Source: Pseudobutyrivibrio sp. | GTDB taxonomy: Bacteria; Bacillota; Clostridia; Lachnospirales; Lachnospiraceae | DNA length: 43,797 nucleotides | Direction: 5' to 3' | NCBI GenBank assembly: GCA_017934625.1 | Contig: JAGBJE010000116.1 | Location: 1-43,797, forward strand | Shown here: piece by piece, positions 22,921 to 37,594 of the stretch | How positions within the stretch are numbered: the stretch's first letter is position 1 | Layout: every line of letters begins with the position of its first letter | Notes under the pieces: generated by a model | Told to the model about the DNA's origin: nothing | Seen by the model: only the letters and a program-made list of their open reading frames with translations | The model's database searches: none | Position numbers and translations under genes: made by a program

Positions 22921-22932
22921 TCTACTGTCCTC

Positions 22933-24048: not shown

Positions 24049-24078
24049 ATGTTTTCTATACGTACATAAAGAAAATAC

Positions 24079-24104
24079 CTCTAGCACATGCTAGAGGTAT
24101 TTTT
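24079..24104. terminator. terminator hairpin at the left island boundary
   Basis: ACCTCTAGCA and TGCTAGAGGT pair perfectly (24079-24100), with T5 on one side and an A-rich tract on the other. It ends the AraC gene. It was probably once the terminator of the opposing tRNA-Leu, whose 3' fragment follows directly. Confidence 0.75.
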
Positions 24105-24127
24105 ATGCCGGCTGCGGGACTTGAACC
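24104..24127 (-). repeat. attL-like direct repeat: 3' fragment of tRNA-Leu
   Basis: These 24 bases (core TGCCGGCTGCGGGACTTG from 24106) are identical to 37509-37532, the 3' end of tRNA-Leu, in the same orientation. The fragment stops in the T-arm and is followed by TTAAACAG and the inverted GGTTCA (24136-24141). TGAACC and GGTTCA thus flank an 8-base centre, as in tyrosine-recombinase core sites. Confidence 0.85.
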
Positions 24128-24170
24128 TTAAACAGGGTTCACAAATACTATAAAATCAAGGAGGAAAAGC

Positions 24171-24266
24171 ATGTCGGACGTCTCGTTGCCCTTTTGGTTG
24201 CCCTTTTTTATTTTGTGGCCAAAAATCATTGAAAATAATGGGAATATTCTATTTGCTTATGTCTAA
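24171..24266 (+). CDS. possible 31-residue peptide beside attL
   Basis: An ORF with a good AAGGAGGA ribosome site encodes a hydrophobic peptide (MSDVSLPFWLPFFILWPK and 13 more residues). It contains two GTTGCCC repeats (24185-24191 and 24197-24203). Those could instead be integrase arm sites, which would make the ORF accidental. Confidence 0.2.
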   Translation: MSDVSLPFWLPFFILWPKIIENNGNILFAYV

Positions 24267-24313
24267 TGGCTGATATAAAATTTATGATATAAGATTTTCA
24301 GGAGGCATTTTAA

Positions 24314-25528
24314 ATGACCAATAATGACATGAATAAACCAAGGGTTGTAAAATCGCATGATATAACTCTTGATAATGATTATACTAATTGGATAATTGAG
24401 CTCAAACAACGATATCGTAATACTCAAATCAAGGCAGCAGTTAAAGTGAATTCTGAGCAGCTACTCTTTAATTGGCAGCTTGGCAGAGATTTAGTTATAA
24501 GAAAAGCTGAGGAAAAGTGGGGCACAGGTATCGTTGAGCAAATCAGTTTAGATTTGCAAGCAGAGTTTCCAAATGTAAAAGGTTTTTCTGCCCGCAACTT
24601 ATGGAATATGAAAAAATGGTACACTTTCTATTCCACAAATGATTCTTTTGAATCTACAATCAGACAGTTAGATTCAATTCTTGATAATAATCAAAAACTG
24701 CAACAAGTTGCTGCAGAAATACACGAGACCGGTTCATCTGCAAAACTGCAACAGGCTGTTGCAGAAATTGAGTTTCCAACTGTTTTTAGTTTTGTTCCTT
24801 GGGGACATCACATCGAAATCATAACTAAATGTAAGGATGTAGATGAAGCTTTATTCTACATAAAACGAACTATAGAGCGTGGTCTTAGCCGATCGGCGCT
24901 GGATGATTGCATTAGAGCAGATTTATTTCATACTTCAGGTGCGGCTCTTACAAATTTCTCAGAGAAGCTTCCTGATGCTCAAGGAAAAATCGCTCAGGAG
25001 ATTCTTAAAAGCAATTATGATTTAGGATTTGTTACATTGCCAGAAGGCTATGATGAAACTGATCTAGAAGATGTTATAGAAACACGTATGACCCGTTTCT
25101 TGCTTGAACTTGGTGAAGGATGGGCTTTCATCGGAAGACAAAAAGAATTAATTATAGCTGGAAAGACCCGAAAAATTGACTTACTTTTCTATCACATATA
25201 TCTTCGTTGTTATGTAGTTATAGAATTAAAAGTCACATCCTTTGACCCTGAGCATGCCGGTAAGTTAAATTTCTACGTCAATGCTGTAAATGAATTCATA
25301 CGTAAGGATAGCGATAATCCTACAATTGGTCTTTTAATTTGCAAAGACATGGATAAAACAGAGGTACAGTTGGCATTTCAGGGCATTACCACTCCAATGG
25401 GAGTCGCCACATATGATAATGTCAAGATTAAAGAAATTCAGGAACATTTGCCTACACCTGAGCAAATACAGCAACAGATGGAAATTGCTGAAGAAGAGTA
25501 TAAGCAACGACAACAGCGTGACAAATAA
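24314..25528 (+). CDS. DUF1016 (YhcG-type) PD-(D/E)XK nuclease-like protein
   Basis: A 404-residue protein typical of mobile and defence-rich regions. The N-terminal DUF1016_N helical domain spans about 20-105 (NWQLGRDLV, GFSARNLWNMKKWY). The C-terminal PD-(D/E)XK-like domain spans about 220-370, with Asp289 (TRKIDLLFYH) and the ELK motif at 304-306 (CYVVIELKV). An insert between them repeats KLQQxxAEI twice (about residues 128 and 144). The family's role is not settled; some members sit beside restriction genes, but none is present here. It has a good GGAGG ribosome site and is the first island gene. Confidence 0.88.
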   Translation: MTNNDMNKPRVVKSHDITLDNDYTNWIIELKQRYRNTQIKAAVKVNSEQLLFNWQLGRDLVIRKAEEKWGTGIVEQISLDLQAEFPNVKGFSARNLWNMKKWYTFYSTNDSFESTIRQLDSILDNNQKLQQVAAEIHETGSSAKLQQAVAEIEFPTVFSFVPWGHHIEIITKCKDVDEALFYIKRTIERGLSRSALDDCIRADLFHTSGAALTNFSEKLPDAQGKIAQEILKSNYDLGFVTLPEGYDETDLEDVIETRMTRFLLELGEGWAFIGRQKELIIAGKTRKIDLLFYHIYLRCYVVIELKVTSFDPEHAGKLNFYVNAVNEFIRKDSDNPTIGLLICKDMDKTEVQLAFQGITTPMGVATYDNVKIKEIQEHLPTPEQIQQQMEIAEEEYKQRQQRDK

Positions 25529-25595
25529 GATTCAAGTCATTTGGGTAGTTTGCTACGTGCCTATTACGTGCGTTCCTTTGCTTGATTAAAAAGTA

Positions 25596-25666
25596 TCCAG
25601 AAAATATGCGCCATCAAGGATGACTTTAGTCACTTGCGAAGTCCTTGATGGCTTATATTATCTGGA
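25596..25666. repeat. long hairpin between convergent genes
   Basis: Arms 25596-25620 and 25642-25666 pair over 25 positions with two mismatches and one G-U. The outer part is TCCAGA/TCTGGA and the inner part GCCATCAAGGA/TCCTTGATGGC. It lies between the DUF1016 gene and the first sensor kinase and could be a bidirectional terminator; there is no clear T-run. Confidence 0.7.
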
Positions 25667-25692
25667 CATAACCGCCAACTCGTCACATTCTT

Positions 25693-27096
25693 CTAAATGT
25701 TTTTCTTCAGCATGACTCTATTTATAAACCTACCATCATTCTGCTCCACCTTCATTGTGCCATTATATCTAGTTGCGATTGCCTCAACATTTTTCAAGCC
25801 AAGTCCGTGCCATAATTCAGGCTCTTCCAATTTGACATCGTGAGTATAATAAGGATTTTCACATTTAATTATAATAACAGGTGCCTTTTCCACAATAGAA
25901 AAAGCTATTGTTCTACAACCATCAGGATAAGCTACCGTTGCTTTTATTGCATTATCAAGCAGATTAGATATAACAATTCCAATATCGTAGGCCTGTATTC
26001 CCCAAGCATCATCAAAACCAACGGACAAATTTATAGCAACATCCAAAGCTTTCGCCCTTGCAACCTTGTCATTTAATATAACATCGATGATTACATTACC
26101 TGTGTAGCTTGTAGTATCAATTGAAGTGATATCTATATCAAGCCTGTCTATATATTCCGCAAGAGCATCGTACTTACCTTCATCAACAAGCCCTTTTATA
26201 TTTGCAAAATGATTAACTATTTCATGCTTTACACTACGAACCTGCTCATTGACACGGGTCGTTTCTTGAAGTCGATTTTCGATTGCTTCCTTTTCCAAAT
26301 GCTCTGTGAAATATAATTGCTGTGCCCGTTTCGCTTCCTGACTCTTTTTAAAGCGTAAAAGTGCTGCTATCTCACCAAGATATATCAACACTGCAAGAGC
26401 TGGCAGTATAAATAATAGCTCTGGCTTTTGCTCCATCAAGATAAAAGGAGTTCCATCCACAACAATTATAATTATGCTTATCATTATCCAAGTTATCAGA
26501 ATTCCTAGTACATTCGGTACCAGCAGGTATGTTAAATCATTCCAATCGATAGGCTCATAGGTTTTAATAATTTTTCTGATTGGTATAAGAGCCAGAACGA
26601 TAATGCAAACATACATTATCTCAACTGAAATCTGAAGGATACCTGTTCTGACTTCTACATATTCTTCGATATTCGAAACTGTCAAAATATCCTTCAGCAA
26701 ATAGTCAGAGAACCAGTCCGTAAGGGAATTTATCAAGAAAAATGATACAGACCTTAGGCTCCACCACAGACTTATAACATAAATAGTTTCAGTGATGTAG
26801 CCTTTAAATCGTACCAAGGTATATGGGACAGCAACACCGATTATACCTAATGCACTTATTGGAAATGTAGTTGCCGGTATCTGCCATAAAAGAAGTTGCA
26901 CTATTGTTACTATAATCGCAAGGCTAAGGAAATCTTCTTTCTTTACTAAGACATCTTGATTAATATAGTTGCAACGATTGTGCGCTTTTTTGATAAATAG
27001 TTCTACTGGAATGAACAAATAAAATAAATATAAGAATACCGTGACCTTGGCAAAAACACCCAGATATCCAAATATACTTAATAATTGTTTAATCAT
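25693..27096 (-). CDS. AgrC-like sensor histidine kinase 1 (GHKL ATPase)
   Basis: A 467-residue membrane sensor. About six hydrophobic segments fill residues 10-250, then a helical linker leads to the kinase core. The phospho-acceptor histidine is in SVKHEIVNHFANIKG (about residue 293). The N-box is DIGIVISNLLDNAIKA and the GHKL lid is LWHGLGLKNVEAIA near the C-terminus. Its ATG overlaps the stop of the upstream regulator by four bases (ATGA). Kinases of this class usually sense peptides, but no agrB/agrD lies next to it, so the signal is unknown. Confidence 0.88.
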   Translation of the reverse strand: MIKQLLSIFGYLGVFAKVTVFLYLFYLFIPVELFIKKAHNRCNYINQDVLVKKEDFLSLAIIVTIVQLLLWQIPATTFPISALGIIGVAVPYTLVRFKGYITETIYVISLWWSLRSVSFFLINSLTDWFSDYLLKDILTVSNIEEYVEVRTGILQISVEIMYVCIIVLALIPIRKIIKTYEPIDWNDLTYLLVPNVLGILITWIMISIIIIVVDGTPFILMEQKPELLFILPALAVLIYLGEIAALLRFKKSQEAKRAQQLYFTEHLEKEAIENRLQETTRVNEQVRSVKHEIVNHFANIKGLVDEGKYDALAEYIDRLDIDITSIDTTSYTGNVIIDVILNDKVARAKALDVAINLSVGFDDAWGIQAYDIGIVISNLLDNAIKATVAYPDGCRTIAFSIVEKAPVIIIKCENPYYTHDVKLEEPELWHGLGLKNVEAIATRYNGTMKVEQNDGRFINRVMLKKNI

Positions 27097-27830
27097 AATA
27101 TATTCCCCGACTGATAATCCAAAAACGTATTTACGAATTCTTTATACTTATACTTTGAAATTGGAATACTGACCCCACCAGACATTTCCACTGTGCTAGA
27201 AGAATAATTTCTAATATGCTGAAGATTAACTATATAACTACGATGAATTTTAAAGAAGCTCTCTGGCAGTCTTTCTTCAAGCTCACCAATCTTTGCATAG
27301 GATTCATATTCGCCACTACCTGTTACAACTCTAATCTTTCTTCCAATGCTTTCAATGTACAAAATATCTGAGAGACTAACTAAATTTGTGTTGCCATTTA
27401 TCTTTAGTTCCAGCTTACAAGTTGAATCTGTCTTTCCCTGTGCTTCAACTTCTGTCTGTGCTTGTAATAAAACTTCTTTGAGAATATTTGACTTAAGAGG
27501 CTTAACTAGGTACCAAAATGCCCTGACAGAAAAGGCTTCAGGCATTCTTTCAGCGAGAGCAGTAACAAATACTATTAATGGCAAAGAATTATGCCCATTG
27601 CCTTCTGCTAAAGTTTCTTGGCGCATTTCCTTTATAAAATGCATTCCGTCTGTCTCTTTGCCAAGGTCTATATCCATAAATAGCAAGTCGACTGCATGAG
27701 TCTTTATATAAGCCTGTAATGTGATAATGTCCTGAAAACATTTAATTTCAACATCTGGCAGTATGCTTTTTGTCACGGCTTCAAGCCTATCACAAGCTGT
27801 TTTTGAATCATCACATATTACAATCTTCAT
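27093..27830 (-). CDS. LytTR response regulator 1 (AgrA-like)
   Basis: A 245-residue regulator with a receiver domain (about 1-122; acidic pocket CDDS, phospho-Asp in LLFMDIDLG, conserved Lys in WYLVKPLK). A LytTR DNA-binding domain follows (about 140-240; DILYIESIGRKIRV, FFKIHRSYIVNLQHIRNY). It is the first gene of the pair with kinase 1. Two copies of ATGTAATGA(A/G)AGG spaced 21 bases apart lie 64-97 bases upstream, consistent with autoregulation by a LytTR protein. Confidence 0.9.
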   Translation of the reverse strand: MKIVICDDSKTACDRLEAVTKSILPDVEIKCFQDIITLQAYIKTHAVDLLFMDIDLGKETDGMHFIKEMRQETLAEGNGHNSLPLIVFVTALAERMPEAFSVRAFWYLVKPLKSNILKEVLLQAQTEVEAQGKTDSTCKLELKINGNTNLVSLSDILYIESIGRKIRVVTGSGEYESYAKIGELEERLPESFFKIHRSYIVNLQHIRNYSSSTVEMSGGVSIPISKYKYKEFVNTFLDYQSGNIL

Positions 27831-27893
27831 CTATTTCCCACCCCAAAGTCTTTTAAATCAGTATAAATCTATTTAATAATATTATTACTCTAT

Positions 27894-27927
27894 ATGTAAT
27901 GAAAGGTCAAAAAAATGTAATGAGAGG
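27894..27927. promoter_or_regulatory. candidate LytTR operator, site 1
   Basis: ATGTAATGAAAGG (27894-27906) and ATGTAATGAGAGG (27915-27927): 12 of 13 bases identical, period 21, upstream of regulator 1. The best-conserved of the five sites. Confidence 0.55.
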
Positions 27928-27942
27928 ACACCAGGCCCTCTC
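27922..27942 (-). terminator. terminator of the paralogous-pair operon
   Basis: On the minus strand GAGAGGGC and GTCCTCTC form a hairpin, followed 5 bases later by T7. Confidence 0.6.
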
Positions 27943-27955
27943 ATAATAAACAATA

Positions 27956-28807
27956 TTAATTTCCAGCTCCATCTCCAGTAGCGCCACCACCATTAGCAAT
28001 CATCATAAAAAATTCTGCTGCAGCACTGATTTCGCCACCTAAATAACTACTGTCGTCTAAGGTATTATTTGCACCTTTAGAACCAAAAATTGCAGCTGTA
28101 TCAGTTACTGTAATTCTACCGACATTTTTCTTCATGGCAGCTTCGCGCTCATTATATCGCTTCTCGTAGTATTTTGCCATTTGCTCCATCAACATATCAT
28201 GACGCTTTTGACGTTTTTCCCACCAGCTATCATCATCTTTTCCATCGCCATAATTCATAGGATAACTTTCACCATGATGTTCCTCTATGGATGCCCCGAA
28301 ATGCTCACTGTGATAATTTCCTTGAGCACCAAATGGAAAGTGAACCGACCTGTCAATCTTAAAATATCCAAGTACCCAGGCTTCATACTTCGGATCTGAC
28401 TTCATTTGCTTATAGCCGTCCTCAGTTATATTCAAGTACTCTACATCATTTAACTGGCTGGAATCATAAGGAATTTTTGAAATAACATCATTTATTAGTT
28501 CTTTGTATTCCTCCAAGGTTAAGTCATCTGGATTATAGTTTTTACCAAGATATTGTTTGATTACATTGTTTCCAGCAGTAACCATTTTCTCAACATCAGC
28601 TTTTCTATCTGGATGCTTAGAAATATATTTATCCACTGTACTCTGTTCAGGTTGTATTCTTTTCTTGCCAGACGTTTTTGCTGCTTCGACTTTCGACAAT
28701 GTTTCTGAAAAGCTAGATGCTTCATTCAATTTTGTGTAGCTCCTCATTCCAGTTATAAAAGTATTAGTGTAACTTAAAAGAGCTTGCTGTACTGACATTC
28801 CATACAT
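27956..28807 (-). CDS. island protein, paralog B of the DPKYEAWVLGY family
   Basis: A 283-residue protein without signal peptide or membrane segment. It is clearly homologous to its upstream neighbour. Shared segments are a KHPxxKxxVxxMV helix (about residue 62), a 'DxTxEEYKxxIxDxIxKxPxDxSQ' region (about 100-120), DPKYEAWVLGY (about 138-148) and FGASIEEHHGESY (about 170-182). The end is helical and charged (WWEKRQKRHDMLMEQMAKYY) and then Gly/Asn-rich. The function is unknown. A good AGGAGG site lies 12 bases after the neighbour's stop. Confidence 0.65.
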   Translation of the reverse strand: MYGMSVQQALLSYTNTFITGMRSYTKLNEASSFSETLSKVEAAKTSGKKRIQPEQSTVDKYISKHPDRKADVEKMVTAGNNVIKQYLGKNYNPDDLTLEEYKELINDVISKIPYDSSQLNDVEYLNITEDGYKQMKSDPKYEAWVLGYFKIDRSVHFPFGAQGNYHSEHFGASIEEHHGESYPMNYGDGKDDDSWWEKRQKRHDMLMEQMAKYYEKRYNEREAAMKKNVGRITVTDTAAIFGSKGANNTLDDSSYLGGEISAAAEFFMMIANGGGATGDGAGN

Positions 28808-28819
28808 AGCTTTTTCCTC

Positions 28820-29734
28820 CTAGAATAGTAGATTACTCCAGTTATTATTAAAACTCGACATCATCTCAATCTGGCTAATTCTCATTTTTTCGTAATATTT
28901 ATTATTTAAATCTTGTTGAAGCTTCTTGCTTTGATACAACCTTGCTTCATATACTTCATCCCAATAATCTTTATTCTTTCTATTCTTCTTAAGTTGTTCT
29001 TCTAAAGTCCAATCTGGGTCAGGTTGTAAATCTGCTTGAGGTGCTTTTGTTTTAATAGCGCCTGAACCTGATGAAGCTGTTTCATACATAGAACGAGCGG
29101 TTCTTGCTGAGCCTGTATAAACCTTAGAATATCCAGCGCCTTTGTGTTCCTCTATTGATGCACCAAAATTCTCTATACAATATGCTCCTTTATCACCCAT
29201 GCCAAAAAATGGATTTTTTACAGCTCTATTTTCGACAGTATATCCTAGCACCCAGGCTTCATATTTAGGATCTTTTTTCATCTGTTCCCAGCCTTCTTCT
29301 GAAATATAAACTGTTTCTTCATCATAGGGATGCGATGCATCAAATGGAGTTTTGCCAATGATATCTGAAATATAACTTTTATATTCATCCATTGTCATAG
29401 AATCAACATCTACATTCTTAGCACCATACATTTCTCTAGCCTTTATTCCAGAATCTACCATGCTGTTCACGCTTTCCTTCCATTCTGGATGTTTTTTTAA
29501 TGATTCATCAACGCTGCTGGTTGCAACTGAACTTCTTGTTGACCCAACATTTTTAGTCTCCGCAGTCGAGCTAAGCTCATCAGTTTTATTAGCAGCACTT
29601 TTCATTTTCTCTAAATAGGCCATATTGCTAGACAGCTTGCTTTTATCAACCTTACCAGTGTTTTGCCTATTATCGTAATTGTAAAGTGCCTTATAAACGC
29701 TTGCTGAAATATTGGAATCAAAACTTATACTCAT
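28820..29734 (-). CDS. island protein, paralog A of the DPKYEAWVLGY family
   Basis: A 304-residue soluble protein, first gene of a two-gene operon with its paralog. The conserved core covers about 75-200: KHPEWKESVNSMV, SYISDIIGKTPFDASH, DPKYEAWVLGYTVENRAVKNPF and FGASIEEHKGAGY. The C-terminal 60 residues form a charged helix. The N-terminus (SFDSNISASVYKALYNY) resembles those of other signal-less proteins in this block. The upstream gap holds a sigma-28-like box pair and a 21-base direct repeat. I do not recognise a known domain. Confidence 0.65.
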   Translation of the reverse strand: MSISFDSNISASVYKALYNYDNRQNTGKVDKSKLSSNMAYLEKMKSAANKTDELSSTAETKNVGSTRSSVATSSVDESLKKHPEWKESVNSMVDSGIKAREMYGAKNVDVDSMTMDEYKSYISDIIGKTPFDASHPYDEETVYISEEGWEQMKKDPKYEAWVLGYTVENRAVKNPFFGMGDKGAYCIENFGASIEEHKGAGYSKVYTGSARTARSMYETASSGSGAIKTKAPQADLQPDPDWTLEEQLKKNRKNKDYWDEVYEARLYQSKKLQQDLNNKYYEKMRISQIEMMSSFNNNWSNLLF

Positions 29735-29827
29735 GAAAACACCCCTCTCGTACCCATAAAAGAAAGCATTGCTTCAAAAAAACTTTCATTCCATTGAAAC
29801 AATGCTTAAACTTCCTTGCTATTAAAT

Positions 29828-29855
29828 TTATCGTGAGAGTAGAGTAACACTTTTA
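29828..29855 (-). promoter_or_regulatory. possible sigma-28 (flagellar-type) promoter of paralog A
   Basis: Minus strand TAAA (29852-29855), 16 bases, then CACGATAA (29828-29835). The sigma-28/sigma-D consensus is TAAA-N15-GCCGATAA. Confidence 0.3.
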
Positions 29856-29860
29856 TAGAT

Positions 29861-29895
29861 ATGTAACCAGTGGTAAGTTATTTGTAATGAGTAGG
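29861..29895. promoter_or_regulatory. candidate LytTR operator, site 2
   Basis: ATGTAACCAGTGG (29861-29873) and TTGTAATGAGTAG (29882-29894), period 21, upstream of paralog A. Confidence 0.4.
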
Positions 29896-29905
29896 TAATC
29901 CAGTG

Positions 29906-30799
29906 TTATTCTAGAACTACTTTATATACATTAGGTAGGATGGCTGGCAACACCTCTTCAACACTACCGTCGAACCAAACTCTTACAGTGTCACCTTCTG
30001 AAAATTCGCTTTCTAAAGTTGTGCTGTCAACTACATAATCACCTTCCGAAAGTGATTTAAACATATCATCCATTTCTACAAAGGTAACTAACAAATGTCC
30101 ATCATTTCTAACTTCTTTGATAGTCGCAGTAAAATTCGCAACTTCCGAAGGAATGGATGTATCAGTGGATTTTGAATCTCTAAAAATAAGACTCTCTCCA
30201 TCAATATCAACCATAATTTGCCCTTCAGAACTATACTGATAATCATAGCCAGAACCAAAATTAGATTGGTCGTTTTCAGTAGGAGTTTCTGAGGAATTGA
30301 CAGAAGTTGAAATCTTCCCATCCATGGTGCCACAACCAACAGCCGAGCAAACATATCCAGTATTCTTATAAACAACATCATTTACCATGACTAGCATAGG
30401 TGCTTCTGATGTACAGCTTTCTTCTGTGACAATATTATTCCAATCGTAGTCAGAGGCTATATCGTCTGGAATGTCGTCAACATTTTGTTCGCGGTAGAGC
30501 ATTGGTACATCCATTTCGCCTGACTCATAGTATTCAATTATCCATTCATCAGCACTGAAATCCTTGTATTCGTAGATTTTATCCTTTGAATCAGCGCCCA
30601 CAATTCCAATCTGATTACCGCAATCAGCAGGTGAGACTGATGTAAATGGAACAAAGATCTTATCGTCTATCAGCAAAGTTTGAAAGCCTTCAGCCTCACT
30701 TATAGTATAACTTGAAAAATTTCCATTGGCAGTCTTTTCGCAAGCTGATGTACAAAGACATACCATGATTGCAAATAATAAAAATTTGATTTTTCTCAT
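29906..30799 (-). CDS. island lipoprotein of unknown function
   Basis: A 297-residue surface lipoprotein. The signal peptide ends in a lipobox with Cys near residue 20 (LCTSAC). Two internal CxxxxC-type cysteines (SAVGCG and EESCTSEAP) might form a disulfide. The last 70 residues look like a small beta-barrel (EGDYVVDSTTLESEFSEGDTV), similar to domains at the end of other clostridial lipoproteins. It has no recognised catalytic motif and a long Ser/Thr/Asn-rich middle. It is separated by a LytTR-like site from paralog A downstream. Confidence 0.65.
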   Translation of the reverse strand: MRKIKFLLFAIMVCLCTSACEKTANGNFSSYTISEAEGFQTLLIDDKIFVPFTSVSPADCGNQIGIVGADSKDKIYEYKDFSADEWIIEYYESGEMDVPMLYREQNVDDIPDDIASDYDWNNIVTEESCTSEAPMLVMVNDVVYKNTGYVCSAVGCGTMDGKISTSVNSSETPTENDQSNFGSGYDYQYSSEGQIMVDIDGESLIFRDSKSTDTSIPSEVANFTATIKEVRNDGHLLVTFVEMDDMFKSLSEGDYVVDSTTLESEFSEGDTVRVWFDGSVEEVLPAILPNVYKVVLE

Positions 30800-30867
30800 G
30801 TAGTATTTCCCCTCATTTACATTATGAATTCATGTTATCATTCCTGAATACTAAATACAATTACCTG

Positions 30868-30893
30868 AAAAAAGGCACACTACTGGTATTGTA
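30868..30893 (-). terminator. probable hairpin downstream of the small broken gene
   Basis: ACACTAC and GTAGTGT form a stem around a 7-base loop between the broken small gene and the lipoprotein, with an A-rich flank on the plus strand. Confidence 0.4.
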
Positions 30894-31000
30894 GTGTACC
30901 CTAATTCATTTTTTAATTACATCTTTCAGTTCATCTGTCAATCAGAACTGTACCACTTTCCTAAAAGTCCAAGTGGTTAACAAAATCATATTGTTGCGTT

Positions 31001-31191
31001 TTAAATAATTACATCAGTATCAATGGCGGAAGATAAATATATAGTTTCAGCAACCATTCCTGACTCATATATTTTTGAAAGGGCAGGCCTATTTATAGAA
31101 TTTGCATTTCCAAAGCTTTAGATGGTAGGTTCTGCATTCCTACGGAATTATAAAATCCCTGCACAACCTGCATATTAATTGGATTAATCAT
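31001..31191 (-). pseudogene. small frameshifted gene (about 63 residues before the break)
   Basis: A strong AGGAGGAGG ribosome site precedes an ATG at 31191. The first frame reads MINPINMQVVQGFYNSVGM, then QNLPSKALEMQIL and a stop at 31093. Shifting by one base at the CTAAAGC run gives a continuation, SFGNANSINRPALSKIYESG, then MVAETIYLSSAIDTDVII and TAA at 31001-31003. The total length of 191 bases is one short of 64 codons. I infer a single-base deletion, or less likely programmed slippage. No homolog is recognised. Confidence 0.55.
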
Positions 31192-31219
31192 TTGGCGCCT
31201 CCTCCTCATTCAATACAAA

Positions 31220-31260
31220 AAGCCAAGACTCATATTATATTCATCCATGAATCTTGGCTT
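31220..31260 (-). terminator. terminator of the FlxA-like/FliD-like operon
   Basis: On the minus strand AAGCCAAGATTCAT and ATGAGTCTTGGCTT (13 of 14 pairs) are followed by T5. Confidence 0.8.
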
Positions 31261-31309
31261 ACAGTTCTTATATTAAATTTCGGAAGCATTGACAATGCTA
31301 TAAAGCTAC

Positions 31310-31343
31310 ATGCTATCAATGGACAGTTCCATGTAATGAATAG
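31310..31343. promoter_or_regulatory. candidate LytTR operator, site 3
   Basis: ATGCTATCAATGG (31310-31322) and ATGTAATGAATAG (31331-31343), period 21, upstream of the broken small gene. Confidence 0.4.
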
Positions 31344-31345
31344 AC

Positions 31346-31984
31346 TTAATACATCATAAACCCATTAGCATTATATGTTCCAGAACGCATTGATAAAGCT
31401 TTATTTATGATTGAATCCATCGAATTGGCACTACTGATAAGTTCTCTTCTGTATAATGAACCGTTACCTAACAGTGCTTTTATATCTTCCTGATTAGCTG
31501 CGTTCAATTTTTCTTGATCAACTGAGAGCTTTTTATCAGTGTTAATTGTAATGCCAATCTTTTCAAAAGAAGCTGCATTTTCCTTGAATGTATCAGTGAA
31601 TTCAGTCTTAAAGTTCTTATTTAATGCACCACCGCAACTATCCAAATTAGAAATAGTGCTATTGTAGGCTGCAACAAAATTAGTTACTCCTTTAATGAGC
31701 TTAGATTTATCATATTCTTTACCACTTTCAGCGGTATATAAATCTTTATCATCAAGCTTCTCTAGTGCATCCAAAAGATTATTGGTCGCATTATCCACAT
31801 TTTTGTATTTTGTATTATTTTTCGTGGTGCCAATACCTAATGATTCCATTTTCTGCTGATATTTAATCTCATTGTTTGAAATTAGCTGATTTATTAGAGG
31901 ATTTCCCGATTTACTTTTGTTGAGCATAGAAAGCATGCTCTGATTACACTGATAGTATTCATAAGAATTGTTTATTGAACTCAT
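31346..31984 (-). CDS. FliD-C-terminus-like island protein
   Basis: A 212-residue protein without a signal peptide. The segment FVAAYNSTISNLDSCGG is followed by FEKIGITINTDKKLSVDQEKL (split across about 105-165). This resembles the C-terminal part of flagellar cap protein FliD (a filament-cap export substrate), where a tyrosine-Asn-Ser helix precedes a 'GI..... G.L.lD..kL' strand. It lacks the rest of FliD, so it is not a normal cap protein. The broken gene at 32902-33684 is a paralog. Good AGGAGG ribosome site. It is the last gene of the minus-strand operon. Confidence 0.6.
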   Translation of the reverse strand: MSSINNSYEYYQCNQSMLSMLNKSKSGNPLINQLISNNEIKYQQKMESLGIGTTKNNTKYKNVDNATNNLLDALEKLDDKDLYTAESGKEYDKSKLIKGVTNFVAAYNSTISNLDSCGGALNKNFKTEFTDTFKENAASFEKIGITINTDKKLSVDQEKLNAANQEDIKALLGNGSLYRRELISSANSMDSIINKALSMRSGTYNANGFMMY

Positions 31985-32050
31985 CTAATTCGCCTCCTAT
32001 AACTTTTTCTATTTGATGTTTCGACAAATCCTCTAAGCCAAATAATCTCC

Positions 32051-32084
32051 GTGTAATGAAATGCACTAAAATTGTATTGAATAG
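32051..32084. promoter_or_regulatory. candidate LytTR operator, site 4
   Basis: GTGTAATGAAATG (32051-32063) and TTGTATTGAATAG (32072-32084), period 21, in the gap before the FliD-like gene. Confidence 0.4.
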
Positions 32085-32097
32085 CGTAAATGAAAGA

Positions 32098-32763
32098 CTA
32101 TCCCTTAACCGTCGCCTCGCTAATCACTTCCTTTGATTCACTTTCCTTTGACTTATAATAATTGTCAAATAGCGAATCCGCAGCATCCATGGTTTGTTGG
32201 CAAATAGAAGGTAGTTTTCTTCCCCAAGACTTACCTGCTAAACCAAATCCTTTATGCATTGCCTTTTGCATTTCATGCATTTTTTCTACATCATCACCAG
32301 CTAATGCGCTAGCAAAATCAAAAAGTCTCTGTGATGTTTGTTTTACGCCCCAATAACCATCTTCTCCAATATCAGCCTGAGCTTTGGCCTTTGTGGCAGC
32401 ATCAACTTTGAAATTGCCGCCAGCTAACATTCGCCAAAAGCTGTCATCATTTGCTTTTCCAAATGTTCCAACTTGTCCTGAAAGAGTCTTATTAACTAAT
32501 TCAAGCATCTGCTGCTTCTGCTTTTCCATATTATCCTTTAATTGTTGTACTAGGGCAGCGCGGTCCTCTTTGCTCATCTTATTGATTTTGTATGAACCCG
32601 TTTCAGTTTTATCACCCTTTTCGTATGTAACCCCTTCATCATTCGATTTTTTATTTATACTGTTTATTCTTACTGGTGTTTCTGTATTTTCAATATTACT
32701 AGGTTCATTTGAAGTTAAAGCTGTAGGTGTTACATTTGAAATTCCATTTATATCCATACCCAT
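32098..32763 (-). CDS. island protein with WG..LP signature, unknown function
   Basis: A 221-residue soluble protein. The first half is low-complexity and polar. The second half (about 105-205) is compact: EDGYWGVKQTSQRLFDFASA, then GDDVEKMHEMQKAMHKGF and WGRKLPSICQQT. I associate this pattern with uncharacterised proteins found near flagellar genes in Firmicutes and Proteobacteria (DUF5610-like), from memory and not checked. The ATG at 32778 overlaps the GGAGG ribosome site, so the ATG at 32763, 8 bases after it, was chosen. Its long leader contains four consecutive hairpins. Confidence 0.6.
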   Translation of the reverse strand: MGMDINGISNVTPTALTSNEPSNIENTETPVRINSINKKSNDEGVTYEKGDKTETGSYKINKMSKEDRAALVQQLKDNMEKQKQQMLELVNKTLSGQVGTFGKANDDSFWRMLAGGNFKVDAATKAKAQADIGEDGYWGVKQTSQRLFDFASALAGDDVEKMHEMQKAMHKGFGLAGKSWGRKLPSICQQTMDAADSLFDNYYKSKESESKEVISEATVKG

Positions 32764-32802
32764 AATAAATACCTCCATCCAAAACTATTCTTTGAAGTCA
32801 TA

Positions 32803-32919
32803 GGTTTTTGATTTTCATCAGAAAATCAAAAACCGGACATAGACCAATATTTTCAGAATGAAAATATTGCCTGGCAAAGCCAGGTTCAGGTGTGATTTTC
32901 CTTAAGTATCACACCTGAA
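32803..32919. repeat. block of four abutting perfect hairpins
   Basis: Hairpin 1: 14-bp arms 32803-32816/32821-32834. Hairpin 2: 10-bp arms 32845-32854/32860-32869. Hairpin 3: CCTGGC/GCCAGG 32870-32875/32879-32884. Hairpin 4: 12-bp arms 32885-32896/32908-32919. All four stems are perfect, and the last three touch without a spacer. The block lies between the amber-interrupted gene and the WG..LP gene, and overlaps the final codons of the former. It could be a structured intercistronic RNA or a small inserted palindromic element. Confidence 0.85.
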
Positions 32920-33684
32920 GTCATACTTACTTTTTACTAAGTCATTTAGAGAATTAGAATAGCGTCCTTGTTTGTTATAAGAGCTTCCTACACCAGCAGC
33001 ATTCGCAATTGAATTTCCCTTATTCATTAACTGTGAAGCATATGAATTATGGCCAGTGAATAGCGATTTTAGGGCTCCTATATCAGCCTTTTTTAACTGG
33101 TCCACATCTAACGAAAGCTTATTTCCCTTTCCAATATAAATTCCTACTTTGTTAAGAGTTTTCTAGTGTGCAGAAGTTGTTTTTGTCATCCACGCACCAT
33201 TTCGTAAAACGCTTTTAGTGTTGGAATTACCTGCAGCTTCAACAGTACTGTTATAGTCTTCAATAAATGCATTTAAAGCCTTCTCAATATCGGTCCAGTT
33301 ATAATCTGATTTATTTTTTTCTTCTCCTGTTAATTCATCTTTTTCTGTAATTGTTTTCTGTTCCCACAAGGATGCACTCATGAGCCTTTCAGAAGATTTG
33401 GATAAAGCACTTGCTGCTTCAGCCATTGCTGTTAACTTAGCCGAAGAGTCTTTTCCAGCGTTGGCTTTCTGGGCTTTGTCCTGTGCATAATAAGCCTTCA
33501 TTAGCTTTCCGTAAGTTCCACTTTTGATGAGTGAATAGTCGGATAGACTAAATGATCCACTTGAAACTTTAGGCGCTGATGCACTTAACCCATCTAAGAA
33601 ATCATTTGAATAGTTTTGATTGTTCACGTTGTAGTTCTCATCGAAATACTTGTGATTTGATACATAGTCGCTAATCCTTGCCAT
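32902..33684 (-). pseudogene. FliD-like island gene interrupted by an in-frame amber codon
   Basis: The reading frame from ATG 33684 (strong AAGGAGG site) runs 173 codons to TAG at 33163-33165. It then continues in the same frame for 87 codons to TAA at 32902. After the TAG the frame reads KTLNKVGIYIGKGNKLSLDV and DQLKKADIGALKSL, which aligns with the FliD-like protein at 31346-31984, so the continuation is real former coding sequence. The first part includes FIEDYNSTVEAAGNSNTKSV. A truncated 173-residue product may still be made. The 3' end runs into the hairpin block. Confidence 0.75.
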
Positions 33685-33718
33685 AATAATCGACCTCCTT
33701 GTCTATAACCCAATCCTT

Positions 33719-34294
33719 TTAAATACGATAATCAAATGGTATATAATTCACAGGAATCCTCTTTTCCTGTTCAAGTTTTTCTAACTCTTCTTCAGTCAGC
33801 ATCATCTGATTCAACTCATCCTCGGATAGTATCTCTTCTGATGATTGCTGTAAGTCTTCAACCATTTCCTCAGTAACTTCTTCAACTGCATCTGTAAGAT
33901 TATCCATTAATTCGTCAAGCATTCCGTCATTCTCAACGCCAGTTGCTTCTTCAATCATATCTTCACGACGCTCTTCAGGCGTCTTAGGTTCATTCTTTTC
34001 AGCAGCTTCAGCAATCTTTTCTGCGAGTTCCTGAGCCTCATCAAATACATGGAACATTTGAGCATTGTTGTATTCCATTTTTGCTGCTGCAATCTGATCC
34101 TCATATCCATGAAACATAGCAAGCTTTTTGGCGATTTCATCAATTGTGTCCGCTTTCATATTTTTCAGATTTTCTTTTTGCTGCTCAAAGAATGCTATTT
34201 TATTGTCCCTCTCTGCTTGTCTATTTAATCTATCTTGCGTACTTTTTAATCCAAGATTACCTAATAAATCTATGCCCTGTAACTTTATATTCAT
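33719..34294 (-). CDS. coiled-coil acidic island protein
   Basis: A 191-residue, very acidic and helical protein (many Glu/Asp/Met) predicted to be mostly coiled coil from about 20 to 180. It has no signal peptide and no recognised domain. A TTG six bases earlier is possible, but the AGGAGG site fits the ATG at 34294 with 8-base spacing. It is the second gene of the operon, 16 to 35 bases from each neighbour. Confidence 0.6.
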   Translation of the reverse strand: MNIKLQGIDLLGNLGLKSTQDRLNRQAERDNKIAFFEQQKENLKNMKADTIDEIAKKLAMFHGYEDQIAAAKMEYNNAQMFHVFDEAQELAEKIAEAAEKNEPKTPEERREDMIEEATGVENDGMLDELMDNLTDAVEEVTEEMVEDLQQSSEEILSEDELNQMMLTEEELEKLEQEKRIPVNYIPFDYRI

Positions 34295-34316
34295 AGGCAA
34301 ATCCTCCTAGAATGAT

Positions 34317-35072
34317 TTACAACAACTCATCAATATTATTACCAACAGGGTTATCTGGATTAATCTCAACTCCCTCTGGAATTGAGTTGTCTACAGTAGC
34401 TTCATGCGGTTCTTTATTTGAATTAGTTGATTTATCTGCAATTTCATAATTATTATTTTCAGCAGCCTTATCTAATTCTTTATCTGCTCGATTTAATACT
34501 TCTAGCTGATCTGATTCTATATCCCTATTTCTAGATTCAATATCAGCAAGTTGTTCCTGTTTCTTTTCTACATCTTTGCCTCTGGCAGAATCTAGTTTGA
34601 TTTCTGTTTCAAGAATACCTGCTTCGCCTTTCAGATTGGCCTTAACAGCGCCACCTGCTTCCACTTGATTTATAGCACTATCTGCTGATATAAGAGCTTT
34701 CATACTAGTTGTAGAAATGCCTTTTGCAGCTTTAGATGATTTAGCTGTTTGTTTGCCTCCAAGCATATCCTCCATAGACGAACCTTTGCTCTGTCTGTTT
34801 TCTTTCTTCTGCTCAATTTGATGTTGGCGTAATTGATTTTGCAAATCAGTTATTTGCTTTTGAATTTCTTGACGTTTTTTCATTTTTTCATCTATGGACA
34901 TTTCTTTATCTTCGCCAAGAGATTGAAGTTGTTCATGGGCATTATTTATCTGCTCTTGAAGGCTTTTACTATATGAATCCATCTGTTGATTCTGGTTTAT
35001 CTGAAATGTTGTTCTGGATTTATGTAATTCACTTATACTATTCATATTGATATTCATATAAACTGACCCCAT
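34317..35072 (-). CDS. FlxA-like coiled-coil island protein
   Basis: A 251-residue polar protein and first gene of the five-gene operon. Residues about 35-95 form a Gln-rich coiled coil (SLQEQINNAHEQLQSLGEDK, EIQKQITDLQNQLRQHQIEQ), the pattern of the FlxA-like family, named after the E. coli flxA gene transcribed by sigma-28. The rest is low-complexity and helical, ending in an Asn/Pro-rich tail. No signal peptide. A strong AGGAGG site is present. A sigma-28-like box pair and a 21-base repeat lie upstream. Confidence 0.6.
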   Translation of the reverse strand: MGSVYMNINMNSISELHKSRTTFQINQNQQMDSYSKSLQEQINNAHEQLQSLGEDKEMSIDEKMKKRQEIQKQITDLQNQLRQHQIEQKKENRQSKGSSMEDMLGGKQTAKSSKAAKGISTTSMKALISADSAINQVEAGGAVKANLKGEAGILETEIKLDSARGKDVEKKQEQLADIESRNRDIESDQLEVLNRADKELDKAAENNNYEIADKSTNSNKEPHEATVDNSIPEGVEINPDNPVGNNIDELL

Positions 35073-35144
35073 ACGTTAACCCTCCTTGGTATAAATTCGA
35101 AATCCTTTTCTTATAAAAAAGATAGTAGTAGCTTTCTATAATCG

Positions 35145-35170
35145 CTATCGACTATGAATTTTTCAATCTA
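35145..35170 (-). promoter_or_regulatory. possible sigma-28 promoter of the FlxA-like operon
   Basis: Minus strand TAGA (35167-35170), 14 bases, then GTCGATAG (35145-35152), close to TAAA-N15-GCCGATAA. About 75 bases before the ATG. Confidence 0.35.
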
Positions 35171-35180
35171 AACCCATTTG

Positions 35181-35214
35181 ATGTGGACTGCATCTAATAT
35201 GATGTGAATAGCAC
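35181..35214. promoter_or_regulatory. candidate LytTR operator, site 5
   Basis: ATGTGGACTGCAT (35181-35193) and ATGTGAATAGCAC (35202-35214), period 21, directly upstream of the sigma-28-like boxes. The most divergent site. Confidence 0.35.
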
Positions 35215-35245
35215 TAAAAAAGCCTGCTGCATTTCTGCAGCAGGC
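35215..35245 (-). terminator. terminator of the second two-component system
   Basis: GCCTGCTGCA and TGCAGCAGGC (35222-35245) form a perfect 10-bp stem with T6 on the minus strand. Confidence 0.85.
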
Positions 35246-35259
35246 ACCATTCTATATTC

Positions 35260-36648
35260 TTATCCAACAAACATTATGTTGAGCACAAACCATAACCCAT
35301 CATTTTCACTGAATTGCTTAATTTCAATATCACCATTGTATTTTCTGGCAATCTCCCTTATGTTACGTACACCAAATCCATGGCCATCGTCATTCTTTAT
35401 TGAAATAGGAATACCTTCTTCATCAATCTGAGCCTTTTTATCAGACTTATTCTTAATGCTAATAATGTAAACATTTTCTCGTTCAACAGATGTTATCTCT
35501 ACATATGGCTCATTAACACTAAGTGAGGCTTCATAGGCATTTTGTATGGCATTTGTAAGAACCACACACATTTCAAATGGATTAACAGCTACATTACTTG
35601 GATATTTTAAGGATGTCTTTAGTGTTATGCCATTATCAGCAAACCTATCTACAAACTCTGATATTGCAATATCAGTTACGGCATTTCCGGTTTTAGCTGA
35701 TGGAACTATATTCTTATATGTCTCTTCCCAATTACCAAGGTAATCCCTTAGTTCCTGATACTTTTCTGTCTCCAAAAGACCTTTCATTACAGCCATATGA
35801 TTGCCTGTATCATGACGTAAGGCTCTCATCTGTTGATATACAGTCTCAATTTGACCTACATACTTTTTGCTATCTTCGATCTGTTTAGCCAACACACGAT
35901 TAGCATATTCTATTTCCTTGTTAGCCTTTATGCTCTGATAAAAGTAAAGTGTAACACAAAGCGTTAAATAAGCCATTATGCAAAACAGTATGCGATACAT
36001 ATTGCCTGGAATATTAGCCTTGATGCTTCCGTTTTCAATGCCATCAAACCATAGCATATAGTACGAATAAATAATTCGTGTAGCAAGGAAGATGCTTATA
36101 CATGGAATTAATAACATAATCAGTTCCTTCCAAGATAGGTCTTCTTGCTTATTTTTATATGTTTTTAGAAGCAGCTTGATAGAGAAGAAGAGTAGCAATA
36201 AAGCTAATCCATACTCGACAATCGTTGATACAACATATTCAGCTACTATTGCAGGGATGCTTTCTCTAAATAATTTAAAGTTAAAAACAAAATCTCTTTC
36301 ATAAAAACCAAGCTCAGTGAATATTTCCAAGCTTAACCATCTAATGATAAAAAAGCTAACACATAGAAATATTTTCTGCATAAGATTTCTTTTTTCATCT
36401 AAATAGAAAAGAATCACACCAACAAAAAACAATGAAAGAATCGAGATTATCAGTCTTATTCCATTTTGGAAATCAACATGCCTTAGTATACAGTCTGTAA
36501 TCCATTCGAAAACTACTGCATAATAAACTGACTTCATATTTTTTACAAACGGCCTGAGCCAATATATAAATAACACAGAAGTAATTATGCAATATATCTC
36601 GATTACAGTATTCATAAAATAATTAAAGAATGCATCAGACACCATCAT
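35260..36648 (-). CDS. AgrC-like sensor histidine kinase 2 (GHKL ATPase)
   Basis: A 462-residue membrane kinase. Six or so hydrophobic segments fill about residues 10-240, followed by a helical linker. The phospho-acceptor motif is MRALRHDTGNHMAVMKG (about residue 290). The N-box is MCVVLTNAIQNAYEAS and the G-box DGHGFGVRNIREIA. The start could be GTG 36651 (GTGA overlap with the regulator stop) or ATG 36648 or 36645; AGAGGA before them favours an ATG. It is clearly distinct in sequence from kinase 1, so not a recent duplicate. No peptide-processing partner is adjacent. Confidence 0.87.
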   Translation of the reverse strand: MMVSDAFFNYFMNTVIEIYCIITSVLFIYWLRPFVKNMKSVYYAVVFEWITDCILRHVDFQNGIRLIISILSLFFVGVILFYLDEKRNLMQKIFLCVSFFIIRWLSLEIFTELGFYERDFVFNFKLFRESIPAIVAEYVVSTIVEYGLALLLLFFSIKLLLKTYKNKQEDLSWKELIMLLIPCISIFLATRIIYSYYMLWFDGIENGSIKANIPGNMYRILFCIMAYLTLCVTLYFYQSIKANKEIEYANRVLAKQIEDSKKYVGQIETVYQQMRALRHDTGNHMAVMKGLLETEKYQELRDYLGNWEETYKNIVPSAKTGNAVTDIAISEFVDRFADNGITLKTSLKYPSNVAVNPFEMCVVLTNAIQNAYEASLSVNEPYVEITSVERENVYIISIKNKSDKKAQIDEEGIPISIKNDDGHGFGVRNIREIARKYNGDIEIKQFSENDGLWFVLNIMFVG

Positions 36649-37364
36649 CACAATCCTCTTGTATTAAATGATAAATAAGCTCTTACCAAATCTTGATACT
36701 TGCCTCGGGCAACAGGTATTTCTTCGCCAGCCACTTTTACGATTTTGGAATTATAAGATTGAATTGCTGAAAGATTAATCAGATATGCCCTATGAACCCT
36801 AAAAAAATCATTTTCAACAGTATTCTCTAAATCTGTCATTCGTCCATAGTATTCAATCTCATCATTATCCCTCATGTGAAGCACAATTCTACGGTTAAAT
36901 ACCTCAGCAAATGCAATTTCTGATATAGAAACACTTCGTCTTAATCCATTGGCTTTGATTATAAATGACTTATTATCAGGCACTACTGGCGTTACTCTAG
37001 TTTGTCTATGTATTATTTCTTCAACGGCTGCATGCAACACCTCGTTTAACTTATTTTTATCAATGGGTTTAACAAGATAATTAAAAGCTCTCACATCGAA
37101 GGCATTAAAAACATATTCCTCCAAAGCAGTAACAAAGATAATCACTGCATCACTTCCATTAGCGCGGACTTGCTTAGCGAGCTCCATGCCATCAATTCCA
37201 GGCATCTGTATATCTAGAAACAGAATGTCAGGATTATATGCTGCTTCCAACAAGTTCTCAGCAGATTCATAGCATTTAACAATGGCATCTGTAATCTCAT
37301 CAGAAATGCTTTTTGCTATGAAATCTCTTATATATTTTTCATCATCACATATTGCAATTTTCAT
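36648..37364 (-). CDS. LytTR response regulator 2 (AgrA-like)
   Basis: A 238-residue regulator with a receiver domain (about 1-120; CDDE pocket, phospho-Asp in ILFLDIQMPGIDG, Lys in YLVKPIDK). A LytTR domain follows (about 135-235; FFRVHRAYLINLSAIQSY). An upstream GTG (37376) is in frame, but the GGGGGT just before the ATG at 37364 is the likely ribosome site. It is first gene of the pair with kinase 2 and the last island gene before tRNA-Leu. A different 21-base-spaced repeat (TACGA at 37383 and 37404) lies just upstream. Confidence 0.88.
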   Translation of the reverse strand: MKIAICDDEKYIRDFIAKSISDEITDAIVKCYESAENLLEAAYNPDILFLDIQMPGIDGMELAKQVRANGSDAVIIFVTALEEYVFNAFDVRAFNYLVKPIDKNKLNEVLHAAVEEIIHRQTRVTPVVPDNKSFIIKANGLRRSVSISEIAFAEVFNRRIVLHMRDNDEIEYYGRMTDLENTVENDFFRVHRAYLINLSAIQSYNSKIVKVAGEEIPVARGKYQDLVRAYLSFNTRGL

Positions 37365-37380
37365 TTCTACCCCCACTGTA

Positions 37381-37414
37381 TATACGAATATTATAGCTGA
37401 TTTTACGATATATA
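37381..37414. promoter_or_regulatory. candidate operator upstream of regulator 2
   Basis: TATACGAATATTA (37381-37393) and TTTACGATATATA (37402-37414) have period 21, the spacing of LytTR sites, but a different core (TACGA). Confidence 0.3.
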
Positions 37415-37470
37415 TACCTTGCCTATTGCGTGAAACGCAGTTTTTTTGTTGTCAAATGAATGTTTCATAC

Positions 37471-37504
37471 AAAAAAAGTGGCCTAGCAATGCTAGACCAC
37501 TTTT
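37471..37504 (-). terminator. terminator of tRNA-Leu
   Basis: Hairpin 37478-37500 with T7 on the minus strand directly after the tRNA. The 33 bases at 37472-37504 are identical to the GH36 terminator (20661-20693). Confidence 0.75.
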
Positions 37505-37508
37505 TAAC

Positions 37509-37532
37509 TATGCCGGCTGCGGGACTTGAACC
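37509..37532 (-). repeat. attR-like direct repeat inside tRNA-Leu
   Basis: The tRNA 3' portion identical to 24104-24127. An island bringing its own copy would restore an intact tRNA, as seen here. Confidence 0.8.
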
Positions 37533-37594
37533 CGCACGATGTTGCCACCAACAGATTTTGAGTCTGCCTCGTCTGCCAATTCCGACAAGCCGGC
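37511..37594 (-). tRNA. tRNA-Leu (CAA)
   Basis: An 84-base gene with acceptor arms GCCGGCT/AGCCGGC. The anticodon stem GCAGA/TCTGT surrounds the loop CTCAAAA, giving anticodon CAA. It has a long class II variable arm and T-arm GCGGGTTCAAGTCCCGC. The 3' CCA is not encoded. It is the integration target of the proposed island. Confidence 0.95.

Follow-up and report, generated by a model that had tools for sequence, protein, structure and literature searches.

A tRNA-Leu-bounded island in Pseudobutyrivibrio is very probably a decayed copy of a recently mobile element family

The window analysed here is a stretch of 43,797 nucleotides from Pseudobutyrivibrio sp. (contig JAGBJE010000116.1 of assembly GCA_017934625.1), and it is a whole contig of a 3.16-Mb draft genome in 310 contigs (handle G000). 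A first-pass annotation, made from the letters alone, had proposed a genomic island at positions 24104 to 37532 that is bounded by a duplicated 3' end of tRNA-Leu. Comparison with related genomes makes it very likely that the proposed island is a composite and decayed member of a family of small integrative elements that use tRNA-Leu(CAA) and have been mobile recently.

An insertion bounded by a displaced tRNA fragment

The ends of the insertion are defined by the following features.
24104..24127, no strand: left repeat, the displaced 3' end of tRNA-Leu(CAA) (self-comparison)
37509..37532, no strand: right repeat, within the intact tRNA save for its first 2 bases (self-comparison)
37511..37594, minus strand: intact tRNA-Leu(CAA), the integration target (ARAGORN; Rfam RF00005, 3e-09)
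24128..24203, no strand: conserved left end bearing putative arm sites for the integrase (GTTGCCC, 5 bp, GTTGCCC at 24185-24203)
37461..37508, no strand: right junction, where homology to the integrase-bearing copies ends and terminator A follows; c216, the integrase and the integrase-side arm motifs are missing

Self-comparison of the window shows that the two repeats are identical at 24 of 24 positions and lie in direct orientation, for which the chance expectation in a window of such composition is 1.4e-5. ARAGORN places a tRNA-Leu with anticodon CAA on the minus strand at 37511-37594, and the repeat therefore corresponds to the last 22 nucleotides of the tRNA plus 2 nucleotides downstream. 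The left copy is a bare fragment and the right copy belongs to the intact gene, as originally proposed. Terminator-like hairpins, each followed by a run of T, stand on the same side of both repeats (24072-24103 and 37483-37495), which also agrees with the annotation; the hairpin scan returned 16 sites versus 8.8 in shuffles. An Rfam search of window positions 20000 to 38000, with E up to 0.1, found nothing besides the tRNA.

The element family and its intact form

The comparison set comprises 29 genomes of the genus Pseudobutyrivibrio, whose handles begin with G, and contig stretches from these and other genomes carry handles that begin with L. Relatives found by protein search belong to this genus and include P. 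ruminis AD2017 (G007), strain MD2005 (G021) and 'Butyrivibrio fibrisolvens' 16/4 (G009), together with the metagenome-assembled genomes SIG315 (G002) and RGIG4783 (G018). The genes shared by these elements form a core cassette, represented in the window as follows.
32098..32778, minus strand: c228, unknown core cassette protein
32902..33684, minus strand: c258, core protein related to FliD C-terminus-like proteins, with an in-frame stop at 33163-33165
33719..34300, minus strand: c193, unknown core protein and cassette marker (no Pfam match above cut-off)
34317..35072, minus strand: FlxA-like protein (Pfam FlxA, 2.2e-16)
35260..36651, minus strand: AgrC-like GHKL sensor kinase 1 (AgrC1; Pfam HATPase_c_5, 6.4e-20)
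36648..37376, minus strand: LytTR response regulator 1 (LytTR1; Pfam Response_reg, 7.9e-20; LytTR, 2e-15)

Core genes or the integrase adjoin tRNA-Leu(CAA) in nine of the 29 genomes. The cassette and the tRNA share a contig in seven of these (G000, G002, G003, G007, G009, G018 and G021), and contig ends point to an element at this tRNA in G041 and G042. Both repeats and the same element-side left end occur on one contig in six genomes (the same seven without G002), and the host DNA past the terminator differs among them. Two repeat copies are present in G041, and in G042 only the integrase end is seen beside the tRNA. Many other genomes of the genus have a single copy of tRNA-Leu(CAA), and so the relatives do not all carry the same 13 kb, a pattern that the annotation had named as evidence against an island. 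The first 100 bases from the left repeat (24104-24203) are 96-100% identical in seven of the 29 genomes, window included, and the host side of this repeat differs among genomes except for terminator types common to some.

The element of G018 illustrates the intact form. It measures about 9.4 kb, from the displaced fragment at L028:6167 to the tRNA at L028:15592-15675, and it carries AbiD, c228, c258, c193, the FlxA-like gene, AgrC1, LytTR1, c216 and a tyrosine integrase gene that abuts the tRNA. The integrase has 463 amino acids (Phage_integrase, 4.7e-12) and is free of stops in G018, G042 and SIG270, in each case adjoining tRNA-Leu(CAA). The contig SIG270 (L124), which is filed as Cellulosilyticum, has both repeats, the same left end, the cassette, AbiE and an uninterrupted integrase with 98% identity. 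This contig might be mis-binned, or else the host range of the family might be wider. The integrase gene of G003 is split by an IS110-type transposase, and that of G009 carries a stop, which could be a sequencing error because several genes of G009 are frameshifted.

No close copy of the integrase is present in the window, G007, G021 or G002, and tblastn with E up to 1 found no piece of it in the window, in keeping with the annotation, which saw no integrase in the island. The nearest integrases in the window's genome have 49% identity over part and 37% over most of the length. A Pfam scan of the 14 island open reading frames (c258 counted as two pieces) revealed no relaxase or conjugation genes; a weak NikA-like protein in G009 (2.7e-4) falls below the cut-off. 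Phage structural genes above the cut-off were likewise absent from Pfam scans of the window and the relatives' elements, PHROGs not being part of the search. Plasmids contain no c193 match and IMG/VR no relative of the c193 alignment, and the 60 phage records that match the integrase are all below 60% identity, with 25% for the best among the matches listed. At L087 (contig 21 of G008), genes for a MobA-type relaxase and a tyrosine integrase are found within 20 kb of a cassette relative (73-97% at the protein level), and mobilizable or conjugative elements may thus be further carriers of the cassette.

Site-specific integration into the 3' end of the tRNA gene, as first proposed, is borne out by the duplicated fragment and left end in six genomes of the genus and SIG270, by the integrase at the tRNA in G018, G042 and SIG270, and by the break in identity at the repeat. 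In the intact copies (G018 and SIG270), the tyrosine integrase next to the tRNA would act on the 3' terminus of that gene and on an identical sequence in the element, recombining the two. The products would be a complete tRNA gene on one side of the insert and the displaced fragment on the other side. The GTTGCCC motif pairs found at the two ends are probably binding sites for the integrase. We infer the action of this integrase in the recombination, the role of GTTGCCC as arm sites and the route of the DNA between cells.

Recent transfer between species

Transfer was assessed by trees and by identity at four-fold degenerate sites, comparing island genes (AgrC1, LytTR1 and others) with the host genes lysA, SLT and M42. 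A match over 90% of the length within the stretch examined was required, and values are lacking, for example, for AgrC1 of G009, c228 of G002, FlxA of SIG270 and M42 of G003, G009 and G021. The gene c258 was left out because the window copy is interrupted and its alignment offset, and the island genes of G041, for which no island locus was given, do not enter.

Between the window and the distant hosts G003, G007 and G021, identity at these sites is 95-99% for AgrC1 and LytTR1 versus 35-54% for lysA and SLT. The values are 95% (AgrC1), 99% (LytTR1), 49% (lysA) and 35% (SLT) for G021, and 96%, 98%, 44% and 36%, respectively, for G003. G018 is a nearer host (lysA 76%), yet its island resembles that of the window less (AgrC1 85%, LytTR1 89%) than the islands of these distant hosts do. 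Island genes of the tRNA-Leu carriers and G015, with c258 omitted, are 83-99% identical, and host genes of all compared hosts except the near relatives G018 and G041 are 35-63% identical, the top value being M42 of G007. In the island tree, the window groups with G003, G007, G021 and G009 (support 0.913), and in the host-gene tree it groups with G018 and G041 (1.000).

Alignment of whole DNA gives the same picture. The window and G021 are 98% identical in the core (91% over DUF1016) and 78.6% identical outside it, with a sharp change at the repeat. The islands of G007 and G021 are 98.9% identical over 6844 bp, and the host DNA beside their tRNAs is 78.7% identical. We conclude from these comparisons that the island core moved between species recently, because four-fold identity of 95-99% in the island stands against 35-54% in host genes.

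The window and G002 have a common right junction, and the right junctions of G007, G021 and the window/G002 pair differ from one another. The common junction was considered as proof of transfer after loss of the integrase. This was rejected, as G002 groups with G015 in the tree of AgrC1 and LytTR1.

Putative arm sites and sister elements

The left end of the element carries GTTGCCC-TTTTG-GTTGCCC, and a related arrangement, GTTGCCC-CTAA-GTTGCCC, is located at the 3' end of the integrase gene in G018, G009, G003 and SIG270. The window retains only the left pair, and G007 and G021 likewise keep this pair and lack the integrase-side motifs. One motif pair of the integrase-side type is located inside the element in G002.

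Homologous integrases (57-61% identity) adjoin another isoacceptor gene, tRNA-Leu(AAG), in G003 (two elements), G011 and G042. The two elements of G003, L193 and L204, resemble the window's family in their integrase (57-58%) and in having a tRNA fragment and a left-end motif, and their cargo includes DUF1016 (L204) or DUF6033 (L193). They differ from it in the tRNA-Leu isoacceptor and in the motif GTTGTCC at the integrase end, and no AgrC/LytTR cassette was seen in either. At L193, the tRNA-Leu(AAG) fragment lies at the left end and GTTGTCC/GTTGTC pairs occur at both ends; at L190 (G008, integrase 63%), a mixed GTTGCCC/GTTGTCC pair is found at both ends. These observations support, with exceptions, the assignment of the GTTGCCC motifs as putative integrase arm sites; it is so qualified because the ends of L204 differ and those of L203 match only partly. 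Near tRNA-Leu fragments, the sister elements or remnants L193, L204 and L206 encode DUF6033 proteins, a 73% relative of the window's 297-amino acid protein, or DUF1016.

Probable decay in place and its alternatives

Relative to the intact form, the window copy would have gained extra cargo (25.6-32.1 kb) from a second cassette type, probably by recombination in c228, and would have lost its integrase end. With this end lost, it is probably fixed in place.

A different reading is that the integrase-less form is itself mobile and depends in trans on the integrase supplied by a different element residing at this tRNA, which would make it a non-autonomous element or 'hitcher'. Integrase-less copies do occur in several species (the window, G002, G007, G021 and, judging by contig ends, G041, where LytTR1 starts 137 bp from the tRNA), and the 98.9% identity of the G007 and G021 islands next to diverged host DNA would fit such movement, as would the right junction common to the window and G002 and the left arm motifs kept in the window, G007 and G021. 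However, the window, G007 and G021 lack the integrase-side motifs, and the pair in G002 lies inside the element. Moreover, the right junctions of G007, G021 and window/G002 differ, as expected for separate losses, and the window's genome lacks a close integrase. We therefore regard movement in trans as unlikely. Of the two fates that the annotation had offered, the data favour decay, and they neither establish nor contradict a movement in trans once the integrase was lost.

Somewhat less probable still is movement of the island through homologous recombination in the flanking DNA, for example by transformation, with the tRNA repeat as a mere relic of the first integration. A 264-bp direct repeat, 97% identical, surrounds both tRNA copies in G021 (L023:8171-8433 and 16220-16483); it is long enough for homologous recombination and could allow homologous excision. 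In addition, genomes with a single tRNA copy likewise have terminators of types A, B and C after tRNA-Leu(CAA). Nevertheless, high identity ends at the repeat in the pairs examined, and lysA beyond it falls to the host level. Finally, chance or an assembly artefact, with a 24-bp fragment unrelated to integration, might be suspected in a single contig of a 310-contig draft, but the chance expectation of 1.4e-5 and the same repeat arrangement in the better assemblies of G003 (3 contigs), G007, G009 and G021 leave this with a negligible probability.

Several observations count against decay of an integrated element family as we propose it. The window is one contig among 310 and a mis-join is possible, and the repeat contexts of G041 sit on separate contigs only. 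In G002, the core lies beside the tRNA without a left repeat and with an integrase-side type motif inside. Frameshifts affect several genes of G009, perhaps as sequencing errors. The element L204 has mismatched ends, with one GTTGCCC on the left side and two copies of GTTGTCC, as a pair, on the right, and the end motifs of L203 (G011) match only in part. The right junction common to the window and G002 disagrees with the tree of AgrC1 and LytTR1. No excised or circular form was seen in the assembled sequence, which was the only material used. We infer the exact empty site, because the order RNase H gene, terminator A and tRNA-Leu without an island was not found in any genome compared. The empty site suggested by the annotation (AraC gene, B terminator, tRNA-Leu and lysA contiguous) was not found in relatives either; in G015, the AraC segment and tRNA-Leu are on different contigs.

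Defence slot and composite cargo

The left part of the island contains a gene in an exchangeable defence slot, followed by cargo additional to the core.
24314..25528, plus strand: DUF1016/YhcG nuclease-fold gene in an exchangeable defence slot (Pfam YhcG_C, 4.6e-52; PADLOC candidate PDC-S02, 1.2e-126)
25693..27096, minus strand: AgrC-like GHKL sensor kinase 2 (Pfam HATPase_c_5, 1.4e-16)
27093..27830, minus strand: LytTR response regulator 2 (Pfam LytTR, 5.1e-23)
27956..28807, minus strand: unknown 283-amino acid protein, related to the neighbouring 304-amino acid protein by profile search (no family at E<0.01)
28820..29734, minus strand: unknown 304-amino acid protein (no family)
29906..30799, minus strand: putative lipoprotein of 297 amino acids, a label read from the N-terminus (weak DUF3221, 0.0011, below cut-off)
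31346..31984, minus strand: FliD C-terminus-like protein of 212 amino acids (Pfam FliD_C, 8e-07, above cut-off)

The slot behind the left end holds DUF1016 in the window, G007 and G021, AbiD in G003 and G018, and AbiEi/AbiEii in G009, G002 and SIG270 (names from PADLOC for the window, G018 and G009). In G021 and G007, the final 15 codons of the AbiD gene persist beside DUF1016 as a scar of replacement.

Parts of the extra cargo at 25.7-32.1 kb match contig 10 of G043 at 75-92%, with 84% identity for 25940-29871 and 90% for 31195-32589, and the tRNA-Leu core starts at c228. A 73% relative of the 297-amino acid protein lies downstream of a tRNA-Leu(CAA) repeat in G043. The nine cargo proteins scanned against NCBIfam have no family at E<0.01. 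On other contigs of the window's genome, single relatives of c258 and the 212-amino acid protein (L209:9831-10616 and L210:1253-1891) are found among ordinary chromosomal genes.

In Agr quorum-sensing systems, a GHKL sensor gene stands beside that of a LytTR regulator. The two pairs in the window share this arrangement, but no match to AgrB (PF04647) was found in the window's genome, a negative that is poorly controlled because the control gave a signal in just 1 of 14 named genomes, and that below the cut-off. The annotation is thus correct in listing DUF1016, two GHKL/LytTR pairs and several unknown proteins, whereas its 'Agr-like systems' are better described as receptor/regulator pairs only.

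The core cassette and its association with flagella

Among the core proteins, c228 has a match in all 29 genomes of the genus; a paralog with 39-45% identity is present in 28 of them, and G020 has only one of 51%. No Pfam match near the cut-off and no sequence relative in the PDB were found for c228. The c258 gene is intact in relatives and interrupted in the window. A FliD_C match at E up to 1 was obtained for 20 of 22 aligned members of its family (best 3.5e-08), although the island-type copy scanned first had none at this threshold. Against the PDB, c258 matched flagellar hook-associated protein 2 (0.015), which carries little weight because the hits alongside it include a designed protein (0.012) and, at 0.061, a CAG island protein.

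A search of genome contigs with c193 gave 51 loci, most of whose titles name Lachnospiraceae or genera of this family. Neighbours were counted at 41 of these (L123-L163), with the remaining ten (L113-L122), all Pseudobutyrivibrio, set aside. At least one other cassette protein lies nearby in 28 of the 41, and both a LytTR and an AgrC-type protein in 14, in variable order; c193 stands alone in 13, some of them on short contigs. We also used c193 alone as a marker in a sample of 397 genomes of the family, examining all 28 positives (24 genera) and 52 of the 369 negatives, taken in handle order. FlhA is present in 28 of 28 positives versus 28 of 52 negatives (Fisher p=4.4e-6, uncorrected for kinship). 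Control of the cassette by flagellar sigma-28 promoters found no support, since 4 window sites fit a simple pattern versus 3.6 expected, and the sole island site lies inside c258.

The core cargo appears to consist of small proteins regulated by AgrC/LytTR and tied to the flagellum, a tie that for now is one of association. We tentatively suggest, as a possibility that could easily prove wrong, that LytTR-AgrC-(DUF6033)-FlxA-c193-c258-c228 constitutes an undescribed, horizontally transferred system of flagellated Lachnospiraceae. Its signal-responsive regulator pair would control small proteins that become part of the flagellum, are exported by it or act on it. Riding on tRNA-Leu elements beside interchangeable anti-phage genes, the system might modify the surface of the flagellum or the motility of the cell in concert with defence against phages. 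No published work on DUF6033 was found, and the titles and abstract openings of the literature found contain no account of the element or its cargo cassette.

A palindrome beside the extra cargo

One further feature may bear on the lost integrase end.
25571..25668, minus strand: orphan imperfect palindrome of a class that precedes the integrase gene in integrase-bearing copies (BLAST, model-independent)

The palindrome scores 106.8 bits, though it is itself one of the seven sequences in the model, and it has no Rfam match. Its stems exhibit covariation, with 10 of 21 pairs changing on both sides among 10 sequences, and it ends in a CAAGCA tail. Other copies include L028:14020-14117, L243:961-1060 and L246, and matches occur in 10 of the 29 Pseudobutyrivibrio genomes, to which the 397-genome family sample adds 11 more genomes. 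They are found upstream of integrases, in some cases near UPF0236 genes, and in many cases between ordinary Lachnospiraceae genes. An integrase-specific role, possibly as an oriT or a riboregulator, was dropped given the matches near UPF0236 and ordinary genes. Because wider searches place many copies between ordinary genes, we classify it as an intergenic palindromic repeat. It is possible that the window copy, which resembles those at integrases, is a scar of the lost integrase end.

A second transferred segment

The sequence to the left of the island was also disturbed.
20661..20693, no strand: terminator copy, type A, marking an old junction by the RNase H gene (33 of 33 bp identical to 37472-37504)
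20696..24059, no strand: second transferred segment, with a GH36 alpha-galactosidase (20728-22920, minus strand; Pfam Melibiase) and an AraC regulator (23161-24048, plus strand; HTH_18)
24072..24103, minus strand: terminator hairpin, type B (terminator hairpin scan)

The segment 20696-24059 is 98.2% identical to G015 over 3364 bp, and the tRNA-Leu neighbourhoods of the window and G015 are 75.6-84.3% identical, except for a 113-bp piece with tRNA-Thr. In G018 and G041, the RNase H gene, terminator A and the left repeat stand in a row, and the sister genome G041 has no AraC gene there. This contiguity and the identity with G015 argue that AraC is not the ancestral neighbour, and the alpha-galactosidase/AraC segment most likely entered this location independently. 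The repeat-bounded insert of the annotation stands; as the segment to its left was itself acquired horizontally, in a separate event, the disturbed region spans about 20.7 kb to 37.5 kb. Terminator type A follows tRNA-Leu in relatives, and type B does so in G007, G013 and G024. The types that follow tRNA-Leu(CAA) (A, B, C and others) vary by species and look as if they had been exchanged between the ends of elements and the flanks of hosts (window positions 20661-20693, 24072-24103 and 37472-37508).

Relation to known elements and implications

Two known classes of elements offer comparisons. Islander (PMC4383910) catalogues tRNA-targeted genomic islands with a tyrosine integrase. The family described here shares integration into the 3' end of a tRNA gene, a regenerated gene with a displaced fragment and, in the relatives, the tyrosine integrase that the window copy has lost. 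The P2/P4-type elements are hotspots of exchangeable antiviral genes (PMC9122126), and they resemble this family in having one fixed slot with varied defence genes in otherwise similar elements. Unlike them, this family occurs in a Gram-positive anaerobe, its slot lies opposite the integrase end, and no phage structural gene exceeds the Pfam cut-off (PHROGs again not searched).

The element is thus ordinary in kind and well bounded, and its cargo system is uncharacterised and possibly new. It represents a precisely delimited, recently mobile element family in rumen Pseudobutyrivibrio, in which intact, broken and integrase-less forms exist side by side and offer a natural series for how islands become fixed. 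Defence genes vary in one slot in elements that are otherwise nearly identical, and a gene set that may be linked to the flagellum moves with them between species.

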